This document shows, one piece after another, positions 44,424 to 53,915 of a DNA stretch of 64,000 nucleotides. The stretch lies in contig NZ_KK211171.1 in the NCBI RefSeq assembly GCF_000620705.1, positions 203,143 to 267,142 of the forward strand, written 5' to 3'. The notes beneath the pieces were generated by a model. That model was given only the letters and a program-made list of their open reading frames with translations. It had not been told where the DNA came from and searched no databases. The stretch comes from Nocardioides sp. URHA0020 (GTDB lineage Bacteria > Actinomycetota > Actinomycetes > Propionibacteriales > Nocardioidaceae). Position numbers and translations under genes: made by a program. Every line of letters begins with the position of its first letter. Positions within the stretch are counted from its first letter, which is position 1.

Positions 44424-45275
44424 TCACCGCACGGAGTCGAGGTAGCCCATCGTCCGGTTCATCAGGTCCGAGGCCCGTCGCAGGTCCGCCGAGGCGCTCG
44501 GTGGCTCGTCCTCGGGCAGGGCCAGCCCTGCGGGGCGCCACCCCGGTCGGTACTCGTCGGCGAGGGTCGCCGCCACGCGGCTCGCGTCCCGCACCACGCG
44601 CGGGTCGACGGTCCACACCGCGTCGAACCGGCGGAGCGCGTCGGCGACCCCGTCCTGACCCGGGCGCTCGACCGCCGCCAGGCACGCCGGCAGGTCGGGG
44701 GCGTCGCAGACGACGGCCCACTCGCGGTTCAGCGCCGCCTTCTGGGGCAGTGCGACCTCGATCGGCGCACCCGGGCGCGGCGCCGCCGGGACGGCGGACT
44801 CGGCGAAGACGACGGCTGCCCGGGCGGTGCGGGCGAGCTCCACCCAGCGCGCCCGGGACGCGCGGAGGAACGTGTCGCGCTGGAAGCAGCCGAAGAGCAG
44901 CGGCTCCTGGGCCCGCGCACAGCACTCGTCCTCGATGGCCCGGCTCAGCGCGACCAGGCTGGCCTTCGACAGGACCTGGGTGGCCATCAGGGGATGCCAC
45001 CGGCGGAGCTCCGCGTAGATCGACCGGGGCCGGGCCGACTCGGTGGTCACCCGGCGTACGGCGGCCTCGAGCGCCAGTCCCCCGTCCCGGTGCCGCACCA
45101 CCTCGAGCACCGCGGCGACCTCGGGCTCGCCGTACCTCCGGTGGCCGCCGGCCATCCTGGTGGGCCGCGGGAAGCCGTAGCGTGCCTCCCAGCTGCGCAG
45201 GGTCGCCGGCGGGACGCCGGTGCGCCGGGCCAGGTCGCTGATCGTCAGCGGATGCTTCAGTTCCGAGCGCTCCAT
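44424..45275 (-). CDS. MerR-family regulator with DICT sensory domain, divergent from the carotenoid operon
   Basis: The 283-residue protein has an N-terminal MerR winged helix (residues 10-75: TISDLARRTGVPPATLRSW then EARYGFPRP and GGHRRY). A C-terminal region (about 120-240) resembles DICT sensory domains (ALSRAIEDECCARAQEPLLFGCFQRDTFLR). ATG 45275 is chosen because AAGAGG lies 5 bases upstream; an ATG at 45296 would add seven residues. DICT domains occur with light- or signal-responsive modules, and MerR-type LitR proteins control light-induced carotenoid genes in other bacteria. Its position back-to-back with crtE makes it the obvious regulator of the operon, by inference. Confidence 0.8.
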   Translation of the reverse strand: MERSELKHPLTISDLARRTGVPPATLRSWEARYGFPRPTRMAGGHRRYGEPEVAAVLEVVRHRDGGLALEAAVRRVTTESARPRSIYAELRRWHPLMATQVLSKASLVALSRAIEDECCARAQEPLLFGCFQRDTFLRASRARWVELARTARAAVVFAESAVPAAPRPGAPIEVALPQKAALNREWAVVCDAPDLPACLAAVERPGQDGVADALRRFDAVWTVDPRVVRDASRVAATLADEYRPGWRPAGLALPEDEPPSASADLRRASDLMNRTMGYLDSVR

Positions 45276-45354
45276 GGCATCCTCTTCACAGTGCATAGAT
45301 TATTCTCAAAGTCTTGCATAAGTTTCTCCCATTGCCCGCCACGAGGAGACGGTC
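45276..45354. promoter_or_regulatory. AT-rich divergent control region of the carotenoid operon
   Basis: This 79-base gap is conspicuously AT-rich over 45294-45327. It contains TGCATA twice (45293-45298 and 45315-45320) and an inverted repeat CTT-GCAT-AAG (45313-45322) within AAAGTCTTGCATAAGTTT. MerR-type proteins bind dyads inside promoters, so this is the likely operator. Exact promoter boxes could not be fixed. Confidence 0.5.
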
Positions 45355-46398
45355 GTGATCCCACGCACCACGGATGATGCGCTGCAGCGGCTGCTCGACG
45401 ACGGCCGGACCCGCGCGGCCGCGATCGACCCGGCGCACGCCCAACTCTGGGAGACCGTGGCCGCCGCCAGCGAGGGCGGCAAGAGGTTCCGGCCGGCGCT
45501 CGTCACCGCCGCGCACGACGCCCTGCAGGGCACCTCGCCCGAGGCCGCAGCCGAGGTCGGCGCCGCCGTCGAGCTGCTCCACACGGCGTTCGTGATCCAC
45601 GACGACGTCATCGACGGCGACGACGTACGCCGCGGCCGCCTCAACGTCAGCGGCACCTTCAGCTCGAGCGCCCGGGCCGCCGGCGCCGGCCCCGAGGACG
45701 CCGCCGGGATCGGCCGGGCGGCCGGCATCCTCGCGGGCGACCTCGCGCTGGCCGCCGCCATCCGCGCGGTGGCGACCTGCGGCGCGAGCCCCGACGTCGC
45801 GCACCGCCTGCTCGACCTCTTCGACGCCGCCCTGCACACCACCGCGGCCGGCGAGCTCGCCGACGTCCGCCTCGCGCTCCACCTCGACACGGCCTCGCTC
45901 GGCGAGAGCCTGGCGATGGAGGAGCAGAAGACGAGCGCCTACTCCTTCGCCCTCCCGCTGCAGGCCGGCGCGGTGCTCGCCGGCGCGGACGAGCACGTCG
46001 TGGACCGGCTCGGAGCGGCCGGCCTGATGCTCGGGGTCGCCTTCCAGCTGGTCGACGACCTCATCGGCGTCTTCGGGGACCCCGCCCAGACCGGCAAGAG
46101 CGCCACCAGCGACCTGCGCACGCGCAAGCAGACGCCGCTGCTCATCCACGCCGCCTCCACCGCGGAGTGGGAGCAGATCAGCGACTACGTCGGGCGCGAC
46201 CTCACCGAGGAGGAGCTGGGCGAGGCGCAGGGCCTGCTCACGGCGTCGGGCTCGCGCCGCTTCGTCGAGGAGCTCGCCGAGGCCCACCTCACCGGCGCCC
46301 GGAGCATCGTGGAGGAGCTGGGCGTCTCCACCGACCTGGTCCCCGCCGTGACCGCCTGCCTGCCCGCACTGATCGACCCCAAGGAGGTGGCGGCGTGA
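45355..46398 (+). CDS. crtE: Geranylgeranyl diphosphate synthase (polyprenyl synthetase)
   Basis: The 347-residue prenyltransferase has GGKRFRPAL, the first Asp-rich motif DDVID (83-87) and the second VDDLIGVFGD (about 233-242). It condenses isopentenyl units into geranylgeranyl diphosphate, the C20 precursor of phytoene. AGGAG lies 8 bases before the GTG start. It is the first gene of a nine-gene run in which each gene overlaps the next. Chain length is inferred from context, since crtB follows directly. Confidence 0.92.
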   Translation: MIPRTTDDALQRLLDDGRTRAAAIDPAHAQLWETVAAASEGGKRFRPALVTAAHDALQGTSPEAAAEVGAAVELLHTAFVIHDDVIDGDDVRRGRLNVSGTFSSSARAAGAGPEDAAGIGRAAGILAGDLALAAAIRAVATCGASPDVAHRLLDLFDAALHTTAAGELADVRLALHLDTASLGESLAMEEQKTSAYSFALPLQAGAVLAGADEHVVDRLGAAGLMLGVAFQLVDDLIGVFGDPAQTGKSATSDLRTRKQTPLLIHAASTAEWEQISDYVGRDLTEEELGEAQGLLTASGSRRFVEELAEAHLTGARSIVEELGVSTDLVPAVTACLPALIDPKEVAA

Positions 46399-47273
46399 AC
46401 CCGCTGCTCTTCAGCCGTCAGCCCGCCCGCACCCTCTACGACTCGGTCTCCGAGGGCAGCGCCGCGGTCGTCATCCGCCGCTACTCCAGCTCGTTCGGCC
46501 TCGCCTCCCTGCTGCTCGGGAAGCCCGTGCGGACCCCGGTCCGCAACGTCTACGCGCTGGTGCGGGTGGCCGACGAGATCGTCGACAACCCCGACCCGAC
46601 GCTCGGACGCGAGCCCCGGGAGCGGATGCTGACCTGGCTGCAGGACGACGTCCGCCAGGCCCTGCAGACCAGCTACAGCGGCAACCTCGTCGTCCACGCG
46701 TTCGCGAGGACGGCGGTCGCGTGCGGGATCACCGCGGAGGTGATCGACCCGTTCTTCGACTCGATGCGGATGGACCTGGACACCTCCGTCCACACCCCCG
46801 AGACCTTCGAGCGCTACGTCTACGGCTCGGCCGAGGTGGTCGGCCTGATGTGCCTGCGGGTCTTCCTCGCGCACGAGCCCGGCCGCGACCGGGACTACGA
46901 CCGGCTAGCGCCGGGGGCACAGCGGCTCGGGGCCGCCTTCCAAAAGCTCAACTTCCTCCGCGACCTCGCCGAGGACCACGACGTCCTGCGCCGCTCCTAC
47001 TTCCCCGGGCTCGACGTCGACGGGTTCTGCGACGAGGACCGCGACCAGATCCTCGACGACATCGACGAGGACCTCGCCGCCGCCGCCGCTGTCATCCCGG
47101 CGCTGCCGTCGGGCAGCCGCCGGGCCGTCCTCGCGGCGTACGCGACGTTCGCCGAGCTGGCCACACGGCTGCGGGCGACGCCCGCGACCGAGATCCTCCA
47201 GGCGCGCGTCCGGGTGCCCGACCCGGTCAAGGTCCGCGTCGTGGCCGGCGCCTTCTACGGGAGCCGGGCGTGA
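46395..47273 (+). CDS. crtB: Phytoene synthase
   Basis: The 292-residue squalene/phytoene synthase has two aspartate-rich motifs: VADEIVDN (Asp60-Asp64) and FLRDLAEDH (Asp190-Asp194), with YVYGSAEVVGLM and QKLNFLRD typical of bacterial CrtB. It joins two C20 diphosphates head to head to give C40 phytoene. The GTG start overlaps the crtE stop (GTGA). It belongs to the CrtB rather than the C30 CrtM type by context and sequence feel; a profile comparison would confirm this. Confidence 0.93.
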   Translation: MNPLLFSRQPARTLYDSVSEGSAAVVIRRYSSSFGLASLLLGKPVRTPVRNVYALVRVADEIVDNPDPTLGREPRERMLTWLQDDVRQALQTSYSGNLVVHAFARTAVACGITAEVIDPFFDSMRMDLDTSVHTPETFERYVYGSAEVVGLMCLRVFLAHEPGRDRDYDRLAPGAQRLGAAFQKLNFLRDLAEDHDVLRRSYFPGLDVDGFCDEDRDQILDDIDEDLAAAAAVIPALPSGSRRAVLAAYATFAELATRLRATPATEILQARVRVPDPVKVRVVAGAFYGSRA

Positions 47274-48880
47274 GCCGCGTCCTCGACGACCGGTCGACCT
47301 CCGGGCCGAGCGCGACCGGACCCGGCTCCGAGCGCGTCGTCGTCATCGGCGGTGGGATCGCCGGGCTCGCCACGGCAGCGCTCCTCGCCTCGCGTGGCTA
47401 CAGCGTCGACCTCCTCGAGAAGAACCACGAGCTCGGCGGCCGCGTCGGCAGCGTGGAGCGCGACGGCTTCCGCTTCGACACCGGCGCGTCGTGGTACCTC
47501 ATGCCCGAGGTCTTCGAGCACTTCTTCTCCCTGCTCGGCACCACCGCGGAGGCGGAGCTCGACCTGACCGTGCTCGACCCGAGCTACCGCGTGTTCTTCG
47601 AGGGTCACGCCGAGCCGGTCGACATCCGGCCCGACCGGGAGCACAACCGGGCGCTCTTCGAGTCCCTGGAGCCGGGTGCGGGAGAGAGGTTCGACGCCTA
47701 CCTCCGCTCCGCCGAGGACACGTACGACGTCGCGCTGCGCCGCTTCCTCTACAACAACTTCGACGCCCGCTCCACGCTGCTGCACCCCGAGGTCGTCCGC
47801 CGCAGCCCGCGGCTGGGCCGCCTGCTCACCCGCTCGCTGGGCAGCCACGTCGCCTCGCAGTTCTCCGACAACCGGCTGCGCCAGGTGCTCGGCTACCCCG
47901 CGGTCTTCCTGGGCTCCTCGCCGAGCCGGGCGCCGAGCATGTACCACCTGATGAGCCGGCTCGACCTCGGCGACCAGGTGCTCTACCCCCAGGGCGGCTT
48001 CACCCGGCTCATCGAGGCGATCGCGGCGCTGGCCGAGCGCCACGGGGCGCGTCTCCACACGGGCGCCGCGGTCACCGGCATCCTGACCAGCGACGACGGT
48101 GCTCGCCGCCCCCGGGCGACCGGTGTGGTGGCGACGGTCGACGGCGACGCGCGCACCTTCCCGGCCGATGTGGTCGTCGGCGCCGCGGACCTGCACCACA
48201 TCGAGACCACCCTGCTCCCGCCGCGGCTCCAGACCCACCCGCCCACGTCGTGGCGCCGTCGGTCGCCGGGACCGGGAGCGGTGCTCGCGATGCTGGGTGT
48301 GGAGGGTCGCCTGCCGCAGCTCCCCCACCACTCGCTCTTCTTCACCTCCGACTGGGACCAGAACTTCGGCGACATCTTCGGAGCCGATGCCCGCGTGCCC
48401 GACCCCGCGTCGGTCTACGTCTGCAAGCCGTCGGAGACCGACCCGACGGTGGCACCGGAGGGCTCCGAGAACCTCTTCGTCCTGGTCCCGGTCCCCGCCG
48501 ACGTCGAGATCGGCGGAGGCGGCCACGACGGTGCGGGCTCCGAGCTGGTGGAGCGCACGGCGGACGCGGCGATCGACCAGATGGCGGCGTGGGCGAAGAT
48601 CCCGGACCTGCGCGAGCGCATCCGGGTCCGCTACACCGTCGGGCCCGACGACTTCGCCCGTCGCTACAACGCGTGGCGGGGCGGTGCCCTGGGCCTCGAG
48701 CACACGCTGCGCCAGAGCGCGTTCTTCCGCCCCAGCAACGTCTCGGCCAAGGTGGACGGGTTGCTGTACTCGGGAGCCAGTACGGTTCCGGGCGTGGGAC
48801 TTCCGATGTGCCTGATCAGCGCCGAGCTCGTGCTCAAGCGGCTCACCGGCGACCGGTCGGCCCTGCCGGTGCCCGGATGA
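47270..48880 (+). CDS. crtI: Phytoene desaturase
   Basis: The 536-residue FAD enzyme has the dinucleotide motif VVVIGGGIAGLATAALLASR (about 23-42) and ELGGRVGS, GFRFDTGASWYLMP, LYPQGGFTRLIEAIA, and the C-terminal LLYSGASTVPGVGLPMCLIS that is diagnostic of CrtI. It introduces the double bonds that convert phytoene to lycopene or a related acyclic carotene. A GTG start overlaps crtB. The number of desaturation steps cannot be read from sequence. Confidence 0.94.
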   Translation: MSRVLDDRSTSGPSATGPGSERVVVIGGGIAGLATAALLASRGYSVDLLEKNHELGGRVGSVERDGFRFDTGASWYLMPEVFEHFFSLLGTTAEAELDLTVLDPSYRVFFEGHAEPVDIRPDREHNRALFESLEPGAGERFDAYLRSAEDTYDVALRRFLYNNFDARSTLLHPEVVRRSPRLGRLLTRSLGSHVASQFSDNRLRQVLGYPAVFLGSSPSRAPSMYHLMSRLDLGDQVLYPQGGFTRLIEAIAALAERHGARLHTGAAVTGILTSDDGARRPRATGVVATVDGDARTFPADVVVGAADLHHIETTLLPPRLQTHPPTSWRRRSPGPGAVLAMLGVEGRLPQLPHHSLFFTSDWDQNFGDIFGADARVPDPASVYVCKPSETDPTVAPEGSENLFVLVPVPADVEIGGGGHDGAGSELVERTADAAIDQMAAWAKIPDLRERIRVRYTVGPDDFARRYNAWRGGALGLEHTLRQSAFFRPSNVSAKVDGLLYSGASTVPGVGLPMCLISAELVLKRLTGDRSALPVPG

Positions 48881-49209
48881 GCCTGCCGCACTGGTCATAC
48901 GTCGCGATGCTGGCCTTCTGCCTCGTGGGGACGCTGCCGCTCATCGTGGCCTTCCGACTCGGGGTGCTGCGCCAGCCGAGGCGACTGCTGCTCGCCATCC
49001 TGGCGGGTGGGGTGCCGTTCCTGGTCTGGGACCTCTACGCCACCTCGGCGGGACACTGGCGCTTCGACCCCGACCAGACGCTGCCCTGGCGGGTCGCCGG
49101 GCTCCCGCTCGAGGAGATCGCCTTCTTCGTCGTCATCCCCCTGGTCTCGGTCCTGACCTACGAGTCGGTCCGGGTGGTCGGCGCGCGACAGCGCAAGGAG
49201 CTCCGATGA
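48877..49209 (+). CDS. crtYc: Lycopene cyclase subunit, CrtYc type
   Basis: A 110-residue protein with three membrane segments. The motif LPLEEIAFF (76-84) carries the conserved P-L-E-E acidic pair of heterodimeric lycopene cyclases, and FDPDQTLPWRVAG precedes it. CrtYc and CrtYd together cyclise lycopene ends, giving beta or epsilon rings in C40 pathways, and take part in C50 cyclases with an elongase. The ATG overlaps crtI. Confidence 0.88.
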   Translation: MSLPHWSYVAMLAFCLVGTLPLIVAFRLGVLRQPRRLLLAILAGGVPFLVWDLYATSAGHWRFDPDQTLPWRVAGLPLEEIAFFVVIPLVSVLTYESVRVVGARQRKELR

Positions 49210-49541
49210 CCTACACGGCGATCGCCGTGGTCGCGGTGCTGGCCGCCCTCGCCCTGGACCGCTGGCTGGCGCGGACCCTGCTGACGAGCTCGCGGACGTG
49301 GTGGTCGGCGTACGGCATCATCGTGGTCTTCCAGCTGCTGACCAACGGCTGGCTCACCGGTCGGGGCATCGTCCGCTACGACCCCGACACGATCCTCGGC
49401 AGCGGACACGTCACCTTCGTCGGGGACGGCCGGCTCGCCTACGCGCCGGTCGAGGACCTGGCCTTCGGCTTCGCCCTGGTGCTGACCACCTGCGTGGCCT
49501 GGACCTGGCTGGGCGACCGCACGGGCGAGAGCGACGCGTGA
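49206..49541 (+). CDS. crtYd: Lycopene cyclase subunit, CrtYd type
   Basis: A 111-residue partner of CrtYc with three membrane segments. YAPVEDLAFGFALVL (about 79-93) is the second copy of the acidic cyclase motif. Both subunits are needed for activity in the family. No elongase (CrtEb) gene is present, so the product should be a C40 cyclic carotene rather than a C50 carotenoid. The start overlaps crtYc as ATGA. Confidence 0.88.
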   Translation: MTYTAIAVVAVLAALALDRWLARTLLTSSRTWWSAYGIIVVFQLLTNGWLTGRGIVRYDPDTILGSGHVTFVGDGRLAYAPVEDLAFGFALVLTTCVAWTWLGDRTGESDA

Positions 49542-50914
49542 GCATCGCGACCCGCATGCAGGCGCTCCAGCCCACCGACCTCGGGATCCCCGGGCCCACC
49601 TCGCTGGACATGGCCCGCGCCTTCCGCTCGGTGCGCGCCGACCCGCTCAGCTTCTTGACCGAGGTGTCCGAGAAGTACGGCGACCTCGTCGCCTTCCCGG
49701 TGCCCGGACCGCCCGCCCTGCTGCTCAACGACCCCGCCGACGTGCGGCACGTGCTGCAGACCGCGGCGCGGAACTGGGGCAAGCAGACGGTGCAGTACGC
49801 CGCGCTCGCGCGGGTGACGGGCCCCGGGCTGCTGGCCTCCGCGGAGCCGAACTGGATCGAGCATCGCCGGCTCGCCGCGCCGGCCTTCCACCACCAGCGT
49901 CTCGCGGCAGTCGGCGACCAGGTGCGGGCGGCGGCGGACGCCGCCATCGCCGGCCTCCTCGAGGTCGACCCCGGTCCCGGCGGTCGGCTGGTGGACGTCG
50001 CCGCGCTCACGCACCGCATCGGCCTCGACGCCGTCGGTCGCGCCCTCTTCTCCACGGACCTGTCCGGTCACGCCCAGCGGCTCCTGGACGCGACGAGCGA
50101 CGCGGCGACCCTCGTCGTCCGTCTGGGCCGCTCGGTGCTCCCGACGGCGGCGTGGGCCCCGACGCCGACCAACGTGCGGCTGCGCTCGACGCGGCGTCGC
50201 CTCGACGCCATCTCCGCCGACCTGATCGCCCAGCGGCGGCGACGCGGCGGCTCGTCCGGCTCCGGGCACGGCGACGACCTGCTGGGCCTGCTGCTCGACA
50301 GCGAGCTCAGCGACGCCGAGATCCGCGACGAGCTGGTCACGATGGTCATCGCCGGCCACGAGACCGTCGCCGCGGCGCTGGCCTGGACGCTGATGCTGCT
50401 GGCGGAGGACCAGCCGGCCCAGGACCGGGCCCGGGCCGAGCTCACGGGCCACGCCGGCCCGGTGTCGCTGATGGGACACCGGGAGACGCTCCCGTGGACG
50501 CGCGCGGTGGTCGACGAGTCGCTGCGACTCTTCCCGCCCGCGTGGGCGCTGTCGCGGCGCTCGCAGGCGGCCGACGTGATCGGCGGGCACGCGGTGCCGG
50601 CGGGCACGCTGGTCATCGTCAGTCCCTGGCTGGTCCACCGCCGCGGTGACGCGTGGCCCGACCCGCTCGGGTTCCGCCCGGAGCGCTTCCTCGGCGCGAG
50701 CGGCACGCTCCCCGCCTACCTGCCGTTCGGCCAGGGACCGCGGCTCTGCATCGGCCGGGAGTTCGCGATCGGCGAGATGGTCGTCGTGCTGAGCCGGCTG
50801 CTCACGGCGTACCGCGTGGACGTGCCGGACGGCTGGACCCGGCCGCCGGCCGAGACCCAGGTCGCGGTGCACCCGCGCGGCGGCATGCCGCTCGTGATCA
50901 GTCCGCTGGCATGA
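49538..50914 (+). CDS. Cytochrome P450, candidate carotenoid hydroxylase
   Basis: The 458-residue P450 has the oxygen-activation motif AGHETV (about 273-278), the ExxR helix DESLRLFPP, and the haem-thiolate loop FGQGPRLCIGRE with Cys404. Its sequence class recalls CYP175/CYP102-like soluble P450s, some of which hydroxylate beta-carotene. Set between the cyclase and glycosyltransferase genes with overlaps on both sides, it most likely adds the hydroxyl (or a further oxidation) that is glycosylated next. Redox partners are not encoded here. The substrate position is unproven. Confidence 0.85.
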   Translation: MSIATRMQALQPTDLGIPGPTSLDMARAFRSVRADPLSFLTEVSEKYGDLVAFPVPGPPALLLNDPADVRHVLQTAARNWGKQTVQYAALARVTGPGLLASAEPNWIEHRRLAAPAFHHQRLAAVGDQVRAAADAAIAGLLEVDPGPGGRLVDVAALTHRIGLDAVGRALFSTDLSGHAQRLLDATSDAATLVVRLGRSVLPTAAWAPTPTNVRLRSTRRRLDAISADLIAQRRRRGGSSGSGHGDDLLGLLLDSELSDAEIRDELVTMVIAGHETVAAALAWTLMLLAEDQPAQDRARAELTGHAGPVSLMGHRETLPWTRAVVDESLRLFPPAWALSRRSQAADVIGGHAVPAGTLVIVSPWLVHRRGDAWPDPLGFRPERFLGASGTLPAYLPFGQGPRLCIGREFAIGEMVVVLSRLLTAYRVDVPDGWTRPPAETQVAVHPRGGMPLVISPLA

Positions 50915-52065
50915 CCGACCTGGTCGTCGCGGCACTGCTGCTGGCCGCCCTGGTCGGAGCCGGCTGGCTGCTGCGCGACCTCCGGACCCTCCCCTTGGGA
51001 GCCCCACGCCGCGCGGAGGCGACGACGGTCTCGGTGGTCGTCCCCGCGCGCGACGAGGAGGCGACCCTGCCGGCGCTCCTGAGCTCGCTGAGCGGGCTCA
51101 GCGTCGGCGTCCGCGAGATCGTGGTGGTCGACGACGCCTCCCGGGACGCGACGGCATCGGTGGCGGCAGCCGCCGGAGCGACCGTGCTCCCCGCCGGCGA
51201 CCCGCCGGCCGGCTGGACCGGCAAGGCGTGGGCCTGCCACGTCGGCGCCGGGGCGACCGGCGGAGACCTGCTGCTCTTCCTCGACTCCGACACCCGACTG
51301 GCATCGGACGCGCTGGACGGCCTGCTCGAGGTCCATTCCGGGTACGGCGGTCTTGTGTCGGTCCAGCCCTTCCACACCGTCGTGCGGCCCTACGAGCAGC
51401 TGTCGGCGTACTTCAACGTGGTCGGGGTCCTGGCCACCGGCCAGTTCCGCCGCCGGCCCCGCGGCCGGTCGATGGCCTTCGGACCCTGCCTGGTCACCTC
51501 CCGCGCGGACTACGAGCGGGCGGGCGGGCACGCCGCCGTACGCGGGGAGATCCTGGACGACGTCGAGCTGGCGGCCGCCTACCAGCGCGCCGGCCTCCCG
51601 GTGCGGTGCGCGGTCGGCGGCCGGTCGGTGCGGATGCGCAGCTATCCGGGCGGCTTCCGCCAGCTGGCGGCGGGCTGGACCAAGAACTTCGCCTCGGGAG
51701 CCTCGGCCGCCGCGCCCGGCCCCACCCTCGGAGCCGTCGCCTGGGTCAGCGCGCACCACGCCGTCGCCGTCGGCGCCCTCCTCGCCCTCGCCGGAGCGGT
51801 CGCCGGGCACCGCCTGTCACCGGCGTACGGCGCTCCCGCGCTGTGGGCGCTCGCGTGGGTCGCGGTCACGTGGCAGCTGCGGTCGGTGCTGCGCCGCCTC
51901 GGCACGTTCCGCTGGTGGACGTGGGCGCTCTTCCCGGTGCCGCTGCTCGCCTTCGACCTCGTCTTCGCGCGCTCGCTGCTCCGCACCGCCGTCCGACGCT
52001 CCGTCGACTGGCGCGGTCGCGACGTGCCGCTCAACGGCTCGGGATCGGTCGAGGGAGGCGCCTGA
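50911..52065 (+). CDS. CrtQ-like family-2 glycosyltransferase
   Basis: The 384-residue membrane-associated GT-A protein has an N-terminal membrane helix, the nucleotide-sugar fold VSVVVPARDEEATLP, VVVDDASRDATAS, the DxD-like FLDSDTRL, and an acceptor-side acidic motif EILDDVELAAAYQ. Two or three membrane helices lie at the C-terminus. The arrangement, with WTKNFASGA, matches 4,4'-diaponeurosporenoate glycosyltransferase (CrtQ) and relatives. It would attach a sugar to the oxygenated carotenoid. Its pairing with the CrtO-like gene immediately downstream strengthens the call. Confidence 0.8.
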   Translation: MTDLVVAALLLAALVGAGWLLRDLRTLPLGAPRRAEATTVSVVVPARDEEATLPALLSSLSGLSVGVREIVVVDDASRDATASVAAAAGATVLPAGDPPAGWTGKAWACHVGAGATGGDLLLFLDSDTRLASDALDGLLEVHSGYGGLVSVQPFHTVVRPYEQLSAYFNVVGVLATGQFRRRPRGRSMAFGPCLVTSRADYERAGGHAAVRGEILDDVELAAAYQRAGLPVRCAVGGRSVRMRSYPGGFRQLAAGWTKNFASGASAAAPGPTLGAVAWVSAHHAVAVGALLALAGAVAGHRLSPAYGAPALWALAWVAVTWQLRSVLRRLGTFRWWTWALFPVPLLAFDLVFARSLLRTAVRRSVDWRGRDVPLNGSGSVEGGA

Positions 52066-52550
52066 TGCTCCGGCTGGTGATGCCGCAGACCCTGACCGTG
52101 CTGGTCGACATCGTGGCGTGGGGCGCCTTCCACGCCGCCACCGGCTACGCCGCCTACCGTCTCGACGACAGCAGGCTGGCCCGCGACGGCTGGCTGCTGC
52201 GGCAGCGGTCCTTCGAGGACAGCGGTCGCTGGTACCGCCGTCGGCTGCGGATCCACCGCTGGAAGGACCGGCTGCCCGAGGCCGGCGACCTCTTCCGCGG
52301 AGGGACCAGCAAGCGTCGGCTGCCGGCGTACGACGTCGCGGGGCTGGAGGCCTTCGCCCGTGAGACGCGCCGCGCGGAGCTGGCTCACTGGTGGGCCCTG
52401 GCCTGCGGCCCCCTCTTCGTGCTGTGGAACCCGCCGCTGGCCGCCGCCCTGCTCGTCACCTACGGCGTGCTGGTCAACCTGCCGTTCATCCTGATCCAGC
52501 GCTACAACCGGTTCCGGATCGATGCGCTGATGGAGCGACTGCGGCGATGA
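52065..52550 (+). CDS. CrtO-like glycosyl-carotenoid acyltransferase
   Basis: The 161-residue membrane protein resembles Staphylococcus CrtO, the acyltransferase that completes staphyloxanthin. Shared features in order are RSFEDSGRWYRRRLRIHRWK (about 44-63), the ETRRAELAHWWAL block, and NLPFILIQRYNRFRI near the C-terminus, with membrane segments on either side. It would esterify the sugar with a fatty acid. The ATG overlaps the CrtQ-like stop by one base (TGATG), with GGGAGG upstream. This comparison is from memory of the family; alignment would be decisive. Confidence 0.8.
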   Translation: MLRLVMPQTLTVLVDIVAWGAFHAATGYAAYRLDDSRLARDGWLLRQRSFEDSGRWYRRRLRIHRWKDRLPEAGDLFRGGTSKRRLPAYDVAGLEAFARETRRAELAHWWALACGPLFVLWNPPLAAALLVTYGVLVNLPFILIQRYNRFRIDALMERLRR

Positions 52551-53377
52551 GCGAGCCAGACTCCCGACACGGCCCGATCGCCCAGCTCCTCATCTCCTGG
52601 GCGCCGCTGAGCGTGATCCTCCTCGTCTACGCCGCCGCCCAGTGGGTCAGCGGCCCGATCACGCAGCACCACGACGATGGCGCCAACCGGCTCGGCTTCA
52701 GCCTGCACGTCTCCGGTCCCGCCCGGGTCGACGAGGCCGTCTTCGGCGTCGTCCCCTCGGTCTGGCTCCAGCAGCGGCTCGTCGACGGCTCGACGCACTG
52801 GTACGACGCCGTCGCCGCGCTTGTCTACGTCACCCACTTCGTCTCGATCCCGCTGGTGACCGCCTGGGTGTGGTTCCGGGTCCGGGACCGCTTCCGCGCC
52901 TGGATCGCTGCCGTGCTCGTCTTCACGGTGGTCGGGGTGTCCGGCTACGTCGTCTACCCGGCGGCGCCACCGTGGCTGGCCTCGCAGCAGGACCAGATCG
53001 GTCAGGTCGACCGCATCTCCCGGTTCGGATGGCACTTCCTGCAGCTCGACCCGATCGCGCGGCTGAGCGGCCTCGGACAGGGCGAGAGCAACCCGGTGGC
53101 GGCGATGCCCTCGCTGCACGCCGGGGCCGCGCTCCTCGTCACCCTCTTCCTGTGGCCGTCGGTCACCCGGTGGTGGCGCGCGGCGCTGGGTGCGTACGTC
53201 GTGCTGATGGCCCTCACCCTCGTCTACACCGGCGAGCACTACGTCGTCGACGTGGTCGCCGGCTGGCTGACGGCGGGCATCGCCGTCGCGGCCGGCGCCG
53301 CCACCCGGCGCCGGTCTCCTCCCGAGCGGTCCGGGGCCGCGGACCTGGCGGAGAGCGTCGACGTCAGCGGTCGATGA
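52547..53377 (+). CDS. PAP2-superfamily membrane phosphatase-like protein
   Basis: The 276-residue protein has six predicted membrane segments. The PAP2 motifs are at the C-terminal half: MPSLHAGAALLVTL and YTGEHYVVDVVAGW supply the two catalytic His; the first K-x6-R-P motif is not obvious. The layout resembles the Aur1/Ipt1-like group of lipid phosphatases/transferases. It is the last gene of the carotenoid operon (ATGA overlap with the CrtO-like gene). A role in releasing prenyl diphosphate, in lipid recycling or in carotenoid tailoring is possible. It converges on idi with a 14-base overlap. Confidence 0.7.
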   Translation: MSEPDSRHGPIAQLLISWAPLSVILLVYAAAQWVSGPITQHHDDGANRLGFSLHVSGPARVDEAVFGVVPSVWLQQRLVDGSTHWYDAVAALVYVTHFVSIPLVTAWVWFRVRDRFRAWIAAVLVFTVVGVSGYVVYPAAPPWLASQQDQIGQVDRISRFGWHFLQLDPIARLSGLGQGESNPVAAMPSLHAGAALLVTLFLWPSVTRWWRAALGAYVVLMALTLVYTGEHYVVDVVAGWLTAGIAVAAGAATRRRSPPERSGAADLAESVDVSGR

Positions 53378-53915
53378 CGGGCCAACCGCCCGCGGCCTCG
53401 ATCGCCGCCACCTGCTCGAGCAGCCACGGGCTCAACGCCCACGGCGCGGCGGCGACGGCGGCGTGCAGCTCCGAGAGCTCCACCCAGCGGGACTCCGCGG
53501 CCTCCTCGGCGTTCAGGACCGGCTCGGCGTCGACCCGGACGGCGTACACCGGGCACACCTCGTTCTCCACGATGCCGCCCGCGTCGACGGCGCGGTAGCG
53601 GAACGACGGCACCAGGCTCACCGGGTCGGCCACCGTCAGTCCCAGCTCGTGCAGGCCGTAGCGCCGGATGGCCTCCGTCGTCTCCTCGCCGGGACGGGGG
53701 TGCCCGCAGAAGGAGTTCGTCCAGACCCCGGGCCAGGTCCGCTTCGTCACGGCTCGCCTGGTCAGCAGCAGCCGGTCGGCATCGTCGAAGACGTAGCAGG
53801 AGAAGGCGAGGTGGAGCGGGGTGTCGGAGGTGTGCACCGTCGCTCGGGGCGCCGTGCCACAGGGGCTGCCGTCCTCGTCGAGGAGCACGACGAGGTCTGC
53901 GGGTTCTGCCGGCAT
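53364..53915 (-). CDS. idi: Isopentenyl-diphosphate isomerase, type 1
   Basis: The 183-residue Nudix-fold isomerase has the active-site Cys motif TNSFCGHPRPGE, the metal/acid region ENEVCPVYAV and HLAFSCYVFDD near the start, all standard for type 1 Idi. It interconverts isopentenyl and dimethylallyl diphosphate, supplying the allylic primer for CrtE. It faces the carotenoid operon, end to end, and so probably has separate control. ATG start with the conserved fold beginning soon after. Confidence 0.93.
   Translation of the reverse strand: MPAEPADLVVLLDEDGSPCGTAPRATVHTSDTPLHLAFSCYVFDDADRLLLTRRAVTKRTWPGVWTNSFCGHPRPGEETTEAIRRYGLHELGLTVADPVSLVPSFRYRAVDAGGIVENEVCPVYAVRVDAEPVLNAEEAAESRWVELSELHAAVAAAPWALSPWLLEQVAAIEAAGGWPVIDR

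Follow-up and report, generated by a model that had tools for sequence, protein, structure and literature searches.

A nine-gene operon of Nocardioides as a candidate route to acyl-glycosylated C40 cyclic carotenoids

In a 64,000-nucleotide stretch of contig NZ_KK211171.1 from Nocardioides sp. URHA0020 (hereafter ‘the window’), nine genes in the order crtE-crtB-crtI-crtYc-crtYd-P450-GT2-CrtO-PAP2 occupy positions 45355-53377, and we consider it likely that they make up a self-contained route to a thermozeaxanthin-type pigment, that is, a glucoside fatty acid ester of beta-cryptoxanthin or zeaxanthin. CrtE, CrtB and CrtI would together yield lycopene, which CrtYc and CrtYd would convert to beta-carotene by closing beta rings. 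A cytochrome P450 resembling CYP175A1 would then add a 3-hydroxyl on the ring, a GT2 glycosyltransferase would place a hexose, probably glucose, onto that hydroxyl, and a membrane enzyme of the CrtO family would esterify the sugar with a fatty acid. We infer each catalytic step, and with it the hydroxyl at position 3, the identity of sugar and acyl chain, and the decoration of one end or both, from the gene families and their arrangement. The pigment is probably a yellow, zeaxanthin-like carotenoid carrying sugar and fatty acid, and the operon is shared by many soil actinobacteria.

The original prediction, drawn from the letters of the window alone, described an unbroken run of nine overlapping genes here, and the open reading frames, their junctions and their Pfam matches bear this out. 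All eight junctions overlap (in gene order GTGA, GTGA, ATGA, ATGA, GTGA, ATGA, TGATG and ATGA), and every one of the nine products scores above its curated Pfam cut-off (Table 1). This includes the product of 52065-52550, which had been proposed to be a CrtO acyltransferase and matches PF18927, the profile of that family. Comparison across the family Nocardioidaceae likewise upheld the gene order, as the run from crtE through CrtO recurs in 31 of the family's 36 further loci bearing PF18927, 30 of those 31 carrying PAP2 too.

The proposed pathway has one required ring-hydroxylation step, so that either of two unrelated hydroxylase families may stand beside the same cyclase, GT2 and CrtO genes. 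We surveyed 126 PF18927 loci, comprising 36 from the family, 75 from named genomes and wide stretches from 15 of the 19 other genomes of the phylum with a match. A P450 of the operon type (>200 bits) and no CrtZ match was found in 71 loci, and in four (L088, L142, L146 and L158) a CrtZ-like gene is present and that P450 type is absent, all four with crtYc or crtYd; the remaining 51, many of them on short contigs, have none of these. The four CrtZ-like genes share His clusters and match Pantoea and Paracoccus plasmid genes. Two of them exceed the Pfam FA_hydroxylase cut-off of 31 bits (L142, 46.5; L146, 38.1) and two fall below it (L088, 26.8; L158, 22), and none of the four gave an NCBIfam hydroxylase match.

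The P450 itself also points to ring hydroxylation. A phmmer search of the PDB returned, in order, 7wzl, two entries for LUTEIN DEFICIENT 5, two for CYP175A1 (1n97, 1wiy) and carotene epsilon-monooxygenase. LUTEIN DEFICIENT 5, CYP175A1 and carotene epsilon-monooxygenase are carotenoid ring hydroxylases. The equivalents of CYP175A1 Q67, Y68 and PPAW, which form part of the CYP175A1 pocket, show no variation among the 41 orthologues compared.

First among the alternatives, though unlikely, is that the P450 hydroxylates C2 or C4 of the ring, or an acyclic end after closure of a single ring, with the rest of the pathway as proposed. The modest identity of the P450 to CYP175A1 would allow this, and PF18916 matches cannot separate one ring from two, but after 7wzl the named proteins that match best all act as carotenoid ring hydroxylases, and the exchange with CrtZ argues against other positions. 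Ranked below it, and unlikely as well, is a C40 analogue of staphyloxanthin, in which the P450 would oxidize a terminal or ring methyl to a carboxylic acid, GT2 would form the glucosyl ester and CrtO would acylate it. In its favor, CrtO belongs to the staphyloxanthin acyltransferase family and homologues of both GT2 and CrtO lie on Staphylococcus plasmids. Against it stand the four loci in which CrtZ-like hydroxylases replace the P450, since CrtZ makes 3-hydroxyls, as well as the retained CYP175A1 signature residues and the likeness to a Thermus cluster described below, which fits an alcohol glycoside.

The two tailoring genes that would act after hydroxylation travel together. In 108 of the 126 loci, a GT2 gene shares the strand of PF18927 and is no more than 900 bases away (family 31/36, phylum 12/15, named 65/75), and distances between pairs of GT2 proteins correlate with those between their CrtO partners (Mantel r of 0.96 for 78 pairs, and of 0.85 for the 41 pairs left after thinning the P450 type), exceeding the largest r among 999 permutations (0.26 and 0.16, respectively) in a test uncorrected for shared species history. 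The original prediction had called the glycosyltransferase CrtQ-like. Its homology and its partnership with CrtO support that name, but no NCBIfam profile is matched at cut-off, and across Pfam and NCBIfam the protein is identified as a general GT2 only. It is 39% identical to the glycosyltransferase of the Thermus cluster over 227 amino acids.

For CrtO, a PDB sequence search gave no credible match, and no solved relative was found by sequence or by structure. A structure model of a CrtO-family member, A2, has a mean pLDDT (the model’s per-residue confidence) of 83.8; Foldseek returned nothing for it at E<=0.001, and the best VIA-align result, a flagellar stator chain (Z 6.7, root-mean-square deviation 5.3 over 105 residues), falls in the chance range for helical proteins; we assign CrtO no fold.

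GT2-PF18927 pairs also occur in other settings. On a plasmid of Picosynechococcus sp. PCC 7003 (L198:7911-9496), GT2 adjoins a PF18927-like protein, and the 17-kb stretch holds no annotated carotenoid biosynthesis gene. Metagenome-assembled genomes of Spirochaetales/Spirochaetaceae (L152, L153, L155, L160, L166) have such pairs too, in stretches that lack window-type crt genes.

In the family, PF18927 is present in 37 of 245 genomes, and in the phylum in 20 of the 396 genomes drawn from it. The P450 (E<=1e-80) occurs in 33 family genomes, 32 of which have PF18927 too, in counts uncorrected for shared ancestry. A strong crtI match (E<=1e-185) was found in 79 of the 245 (nine more, with matches at 35-36% identity, are uncounted), and the P450-PF18927 pair therefore marks a subset of the pigment makers. 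The five family loci with PF18927 and no P450 (L082-L086) show no window-type carotenoid gene inside their 13-kb stretches. One further family genome, G205, has a 60% identical P450 (L177:7165-8526) that sits away from its crt genes, near an acetyl-CoA hydrolase/transferase-domain gene and a GSDH gene.

That the pathway ends at a xanthophyll, free or glycosylated, while the PF18927 protein either has no activity or modifies a different lipid, is very improbable: PF18927 does occur away from window-type carotenoid genes, in the five family loci and in the Picosynechococcus plasmid pair, but 14 CrtO columns are invariant across 38 diverse sequences (including R65, W66, K67, D68, E100, E105 and H108), the family accompanies the P450 in all but one of its 33 genomes, and CrtO directly follows GT2 in the operon.

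Among the 75 named-genome loci, 40 carry P450-GT2-CrtO, in Nocardioides, Occultella, Knoellia, Luteipulveratus, Kribbella and metagenome-assembled genomes of Aeromicrobium, Lapillicoccus, Dermatophilaceae and others. The named-genome scan used CrtO motifs from Nocardioidaceae sequences and is biased towards that family, and the family and named sets partly overlap, as do the P450 loci counted in each (31 and 40, respectively), so that their counts are not additive. Gene order varies among the 40 loci: Occultella has crtE-B-I on the opposite strand, and Knoellia, Luteipulveratus and Kribbella have PAP2 upstream. In 38 of the 40 named P450-type loci, crtYc or crtYd lies in the stretch. The two others, L136 and L140, were considered as cyclase-less exceptions that would speak against a ring substrate and were dismissed, because a PF18916 cyclase is encoded elsewhere in both genomes; PF05834 was left unused in the cyclase search, as it gave short or weak matches only and did likewise in control genomes.

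The identity of the skeleton is indicated by genes of the same operon. Its crtB is the sole PF00494 synthase in its own genome and stands beside crtE and the cyclase genes, and the genome’s two PF18916 matches both lie within the operon. The claim that CrtP/CrtN oxidases are absent holds for the operon, and the only crtI_fam match above cut-off in the genome is the operon’s crtI, but the genome has 21 further matches below cut-off (best 139 bits), which could include a CrtN/CrtP-like oxidase. We rejected a C50 carotenoid for this operon, as none of the nine products has a Pfam match to a UbiA elongase; the genome’s four UbiA proteins are all encoded outside the operon. A role as rhodopsin antenna was also considered: PF01036 had no match in the genome, and the controls were equally blank, which makes the search uninformative. 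Taken with the family matches, the co-occurrence and the replacement of the P450 by CrtZ, the predicted C40 cyclic skeleton, oxygenated by the P450 and then glycosylated and acylated, is supported, with the acyl glycoside itself still a prediction.

For crt regions that lack the P450, comparison was against the window genes alone and covered 18 of the 47 strong-crtI genomes lacking the P450-CrtO pair (G205 included). Two loci from another genus, g23 (L179, L180), keep MerR-crtE-B-I, with crtI 71-73% identical, followed by a UbiA protein and, in L180, with a glycosyltransferase, a C50-like set. Judging from these loci, the operon appears to be exchangeable at its tailoring end.

Several observations weigh against the proposed thermozeaxanthin-type route. 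The top PDB match of the P450, 7wzl, is an uncharacterized ‘putative cytochrome P450’; identity to CYP175A1 is about 30-36%, and some haloarchaeal plasmid P450s are closer by bit score (up to 192 among the matches listed, compared with 130 for CYP175A1). The exchange with CrtZ rests on four loci. The least clean of them is L158, where a P450 from a different subfamily follows after 5.5 kb and an upstream FA_desaturase matches CrtR weakly (26 of 475 bits). The best NCBIfam matches of GT2 are HpnB (79 bits) and CruG (78 bits), neither reaching cut-off, and the acceptor of staphylococcal CrtO is the glucosyl ester of an acid, another bond type. No P450 accompanies PF18927 in five genomes of the family (G037, G077, G191, G195, G198), G205 has the P450 and falls outside the 37 genomes with PF18927, and crtI, present in the stretch in 38 of the 40 named P450-type loci, was not found in the stretches of L137 and L141. 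The shared history left in the co-occurrence counts and the Mantel test counts on the same side.

Table 1. Genes and elements of the carotenoid region, with their positions in the window
Feature	Position	Strand	Profile matches
crtE, geranylgeranyl diphosphate synthase (polyprenyl synthetase family)	45355..46398	+	Pfam PF00348 polyprenyl_synt 166 bits; NCBIfam: none reaches cut-off
crtB, phytoene synthase	46395..47273	+	Pfam PF00494 SQS_PSY 147 bits
crtI, phytoene desaturase	47270..48880	+	NCBIfam TIGR02734 crtI_fam 559 bits (cut-off 238); Pfam Amino_oxidase 131 bits
crtYc, lycopene cyclase subunit	48877..49209	+	Pfam PF18916 Lycopene_cyc 44.7 bits (cut-off 27); TIGR03462 68 bits
crtYd, lycopene cyclase subunit	49206..49541	+	Pfam PF18916 Lycopene_cyc 28.4 bits (cut-off 27); TIGR03462 48 bits
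Cytochrome P450, predicted beta-ring 3-hydroxylase, CYP175A1 type	49538..50914	+	Pfam p450 227 bits
GT2 glycosyltransferase (CrtQ/CruC-like), predicted carotenoid glucosyltransferase	50911..52065	+	Pfam Glycos_transf_2 53 bits
CrtO-family acyltransferase	52065..52550	+	Pfam PF18927 111 bits (cut-off 27.3), profile positions 3-123 of 123
PAP2_3 membrane protein	52547..53377	+	Pfam PF14378 115 bits
idi, type 1 isopentenyl diphosphate isomerase (supply gene), convergent to operon	53364..53915	-	NCBIfam NF002995 249 bits (cut-off 127); TIGR02150 151 bits (cut-off 106)
MerR helix-turn-helix (HTH) + DICT-domain regulator, divergent from operon	44424..45296	-	Pfam MerR_1 43 bits, DICT 68 bits
Operator/promoter-like element, two TGC(A/C)TAG-type halves (TGCATAG...TTGCATAAG), between regulator and crtE	45292..45322	+	

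The last gene of the operon encodes a PAP2 protein that is present in 36 of the 40 named P450-type loci and, at 35% identity, in the CrtZ locus L158. Its PSxH and GxHxVxD residues, presumably catalytic, are invariant in nine aligned sequences, and it matches the NCBIfam phosphoinositol dihydroceramide synthase profile weakly (54 of 480 bits). We give little credence to the idea that PAP2 is a third tailoring enzyme, which would move a phospholipid phospho-headgroup onto the glycosyl carotenoid and make the product an undescribed phosphoglycolipid carotenoid; PAP2 is a frequent companion of the operon with an unproven role.

The divergent MerR-DICT regulator is likewise a frequent companion whose role in the pathway is unproven, and its NCBIfam CarH match covers the N-terminal part only (66 bits, cut-off 400). 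Between it and crtE, the strict pair of element halves is found in 23 of 29 regions (the window and 28 named loci) and the right half in 28 of 29, counts that are descriptive because the pattern was derived from these same regions; in the window the pair occurs once. The element is possibly an operator of the MerR-DICT regulator or a promoter.

Staphyloxanthin had been chosen as the comparison for this operon, but the Thermus cluster described below is closer. All that the operon and the staphyloxanthin system have in common is the pairing of GT2 with a PF18927 acyltransferase, as in the Staphylococcus CrtQ-CrtO pair. The backbone of staphyloxanthin is a C30 acyclic acid made by CrtM, CrtN and CrtP, in contrast to the C40 cyclic set of the operon. 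Searches with tblastn find plasmid homologues of both tailoring genes in Staphylococcus, where CrtO identity is 25-32%.

Salinixanthin-type acyl glycosides of Salinibacter and Rhodothermus are a further parallel, being C40 cyclic carotenoids with a sugar and a fatty acid like the predicted product of the operon, and the available parts of PMC5822342 propose CruC and CruD for the sugar and acyl steps. The sugar site proposed in those parts is an acyclic 1'-hydroxy end, unlike a ring hydroxyl; a ketolase is present, and no P450 is among the genes named there. Closest within our own survey are the four CrtZ loci, which have crtYc and/or crtYd, GT2 and PF18927 as the operon does, with the CrtZ-like hydroxylase in place of the P450.

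In the titles and abstract openings of the open-access papers listed, we found no description of the crtE-to-PAP2 operon, and ‘Nocardioides’ is absent from the main text of PMC2889829. As far as that literature shows, three things seem to be new: a P450-type version for C40 cyclic carotenoids in which the CrtO family does the finishing, the spread of this version among mesophilic actinobacteria, and the interchange of P450 and CrtZ beside one GT2-CrtO pair.

The nearest known system is the thermozeaxanthin cluster on plasmid pTT27 of Thermus thermophilus (NC_005838.1), where ldrP and carH are divergent from crtB, phr, a P450, a lycopene cyclase, a lysophospholipid-acyltransferase family protein and a glycosyltransferase, with crtI and fni further on. 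The accessible parts of PMC4021367 assign TT_P0057, 0059, 0060, 0061, 0062 and 0066 as CrtB, CrtZ, CrtY, CruD, CruC and CrtI for thermocryptoxanthin/thermozeaxanthin, and for the glycosyl and acyl steps, where there were gaps, they draw on analogy with enzymes of Staphylococcus and Halobacillus, so that these two functions are assigned and unproven there; we paired these assignments with the NC_005838.1 genes by order. Both systems have a divergent MerR-type regulator, crtB, a P450 of CYP175A1 kind, a PF18916 cyclase, an acyltransferase, a GT2, crtI and an isopentenyl diphosphate isomerase gene, and the thermozeaxanthin-type set of cyclase, ring hydroxylase, GT2 and acyltransferase in one cluster is complete in the operon. 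They differ in that the Thermus cyclase is fused and follows the P450, whereas crtYc and crtYd are split and precede it; in that the Thermus acyltransferase comes before the glycosyltransferase and CrtO after it; in the regulator (MerR with B12-binding domain, CarH, in Thermus and MerR with DICT in the operon) and the isomerase (type 2 in Thermus, type 1 idi beside the operon); and in the phr gene inside the Thermus cluster, which has no crtE annotated in its 30-kb stretch. The proteins are about 28-37% identical, and the acyltransferases belong to PF01553 in Thermus and PF18927 in the operon, without profile similarity (hhalign probability 0.1%). The operon therefore appears to follow the pathway logic of Thermus with an acyltransferase of a different family. 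Because Thermus already joins a CrtYcd-type cyclase, CYP175A1, a GT2 and an acyltransferase, the original view of the gene set as non-standard is narrowed to its CrtO-finished version. If our reading is correct, the CrtO family is predicted to acylate the sugar of alcohol glycosides in addition to the acid ester of staphyloxanthin, the operon becomes a candidate for the genes behind acyl-glycosylated C40 pigments of common soil actinobacteria, and a single type of product would seem to be reached with exchangeable modules, P450 or CrtZ for ring hydroxylation and PF18927 or PF01553 for acyl transfer.

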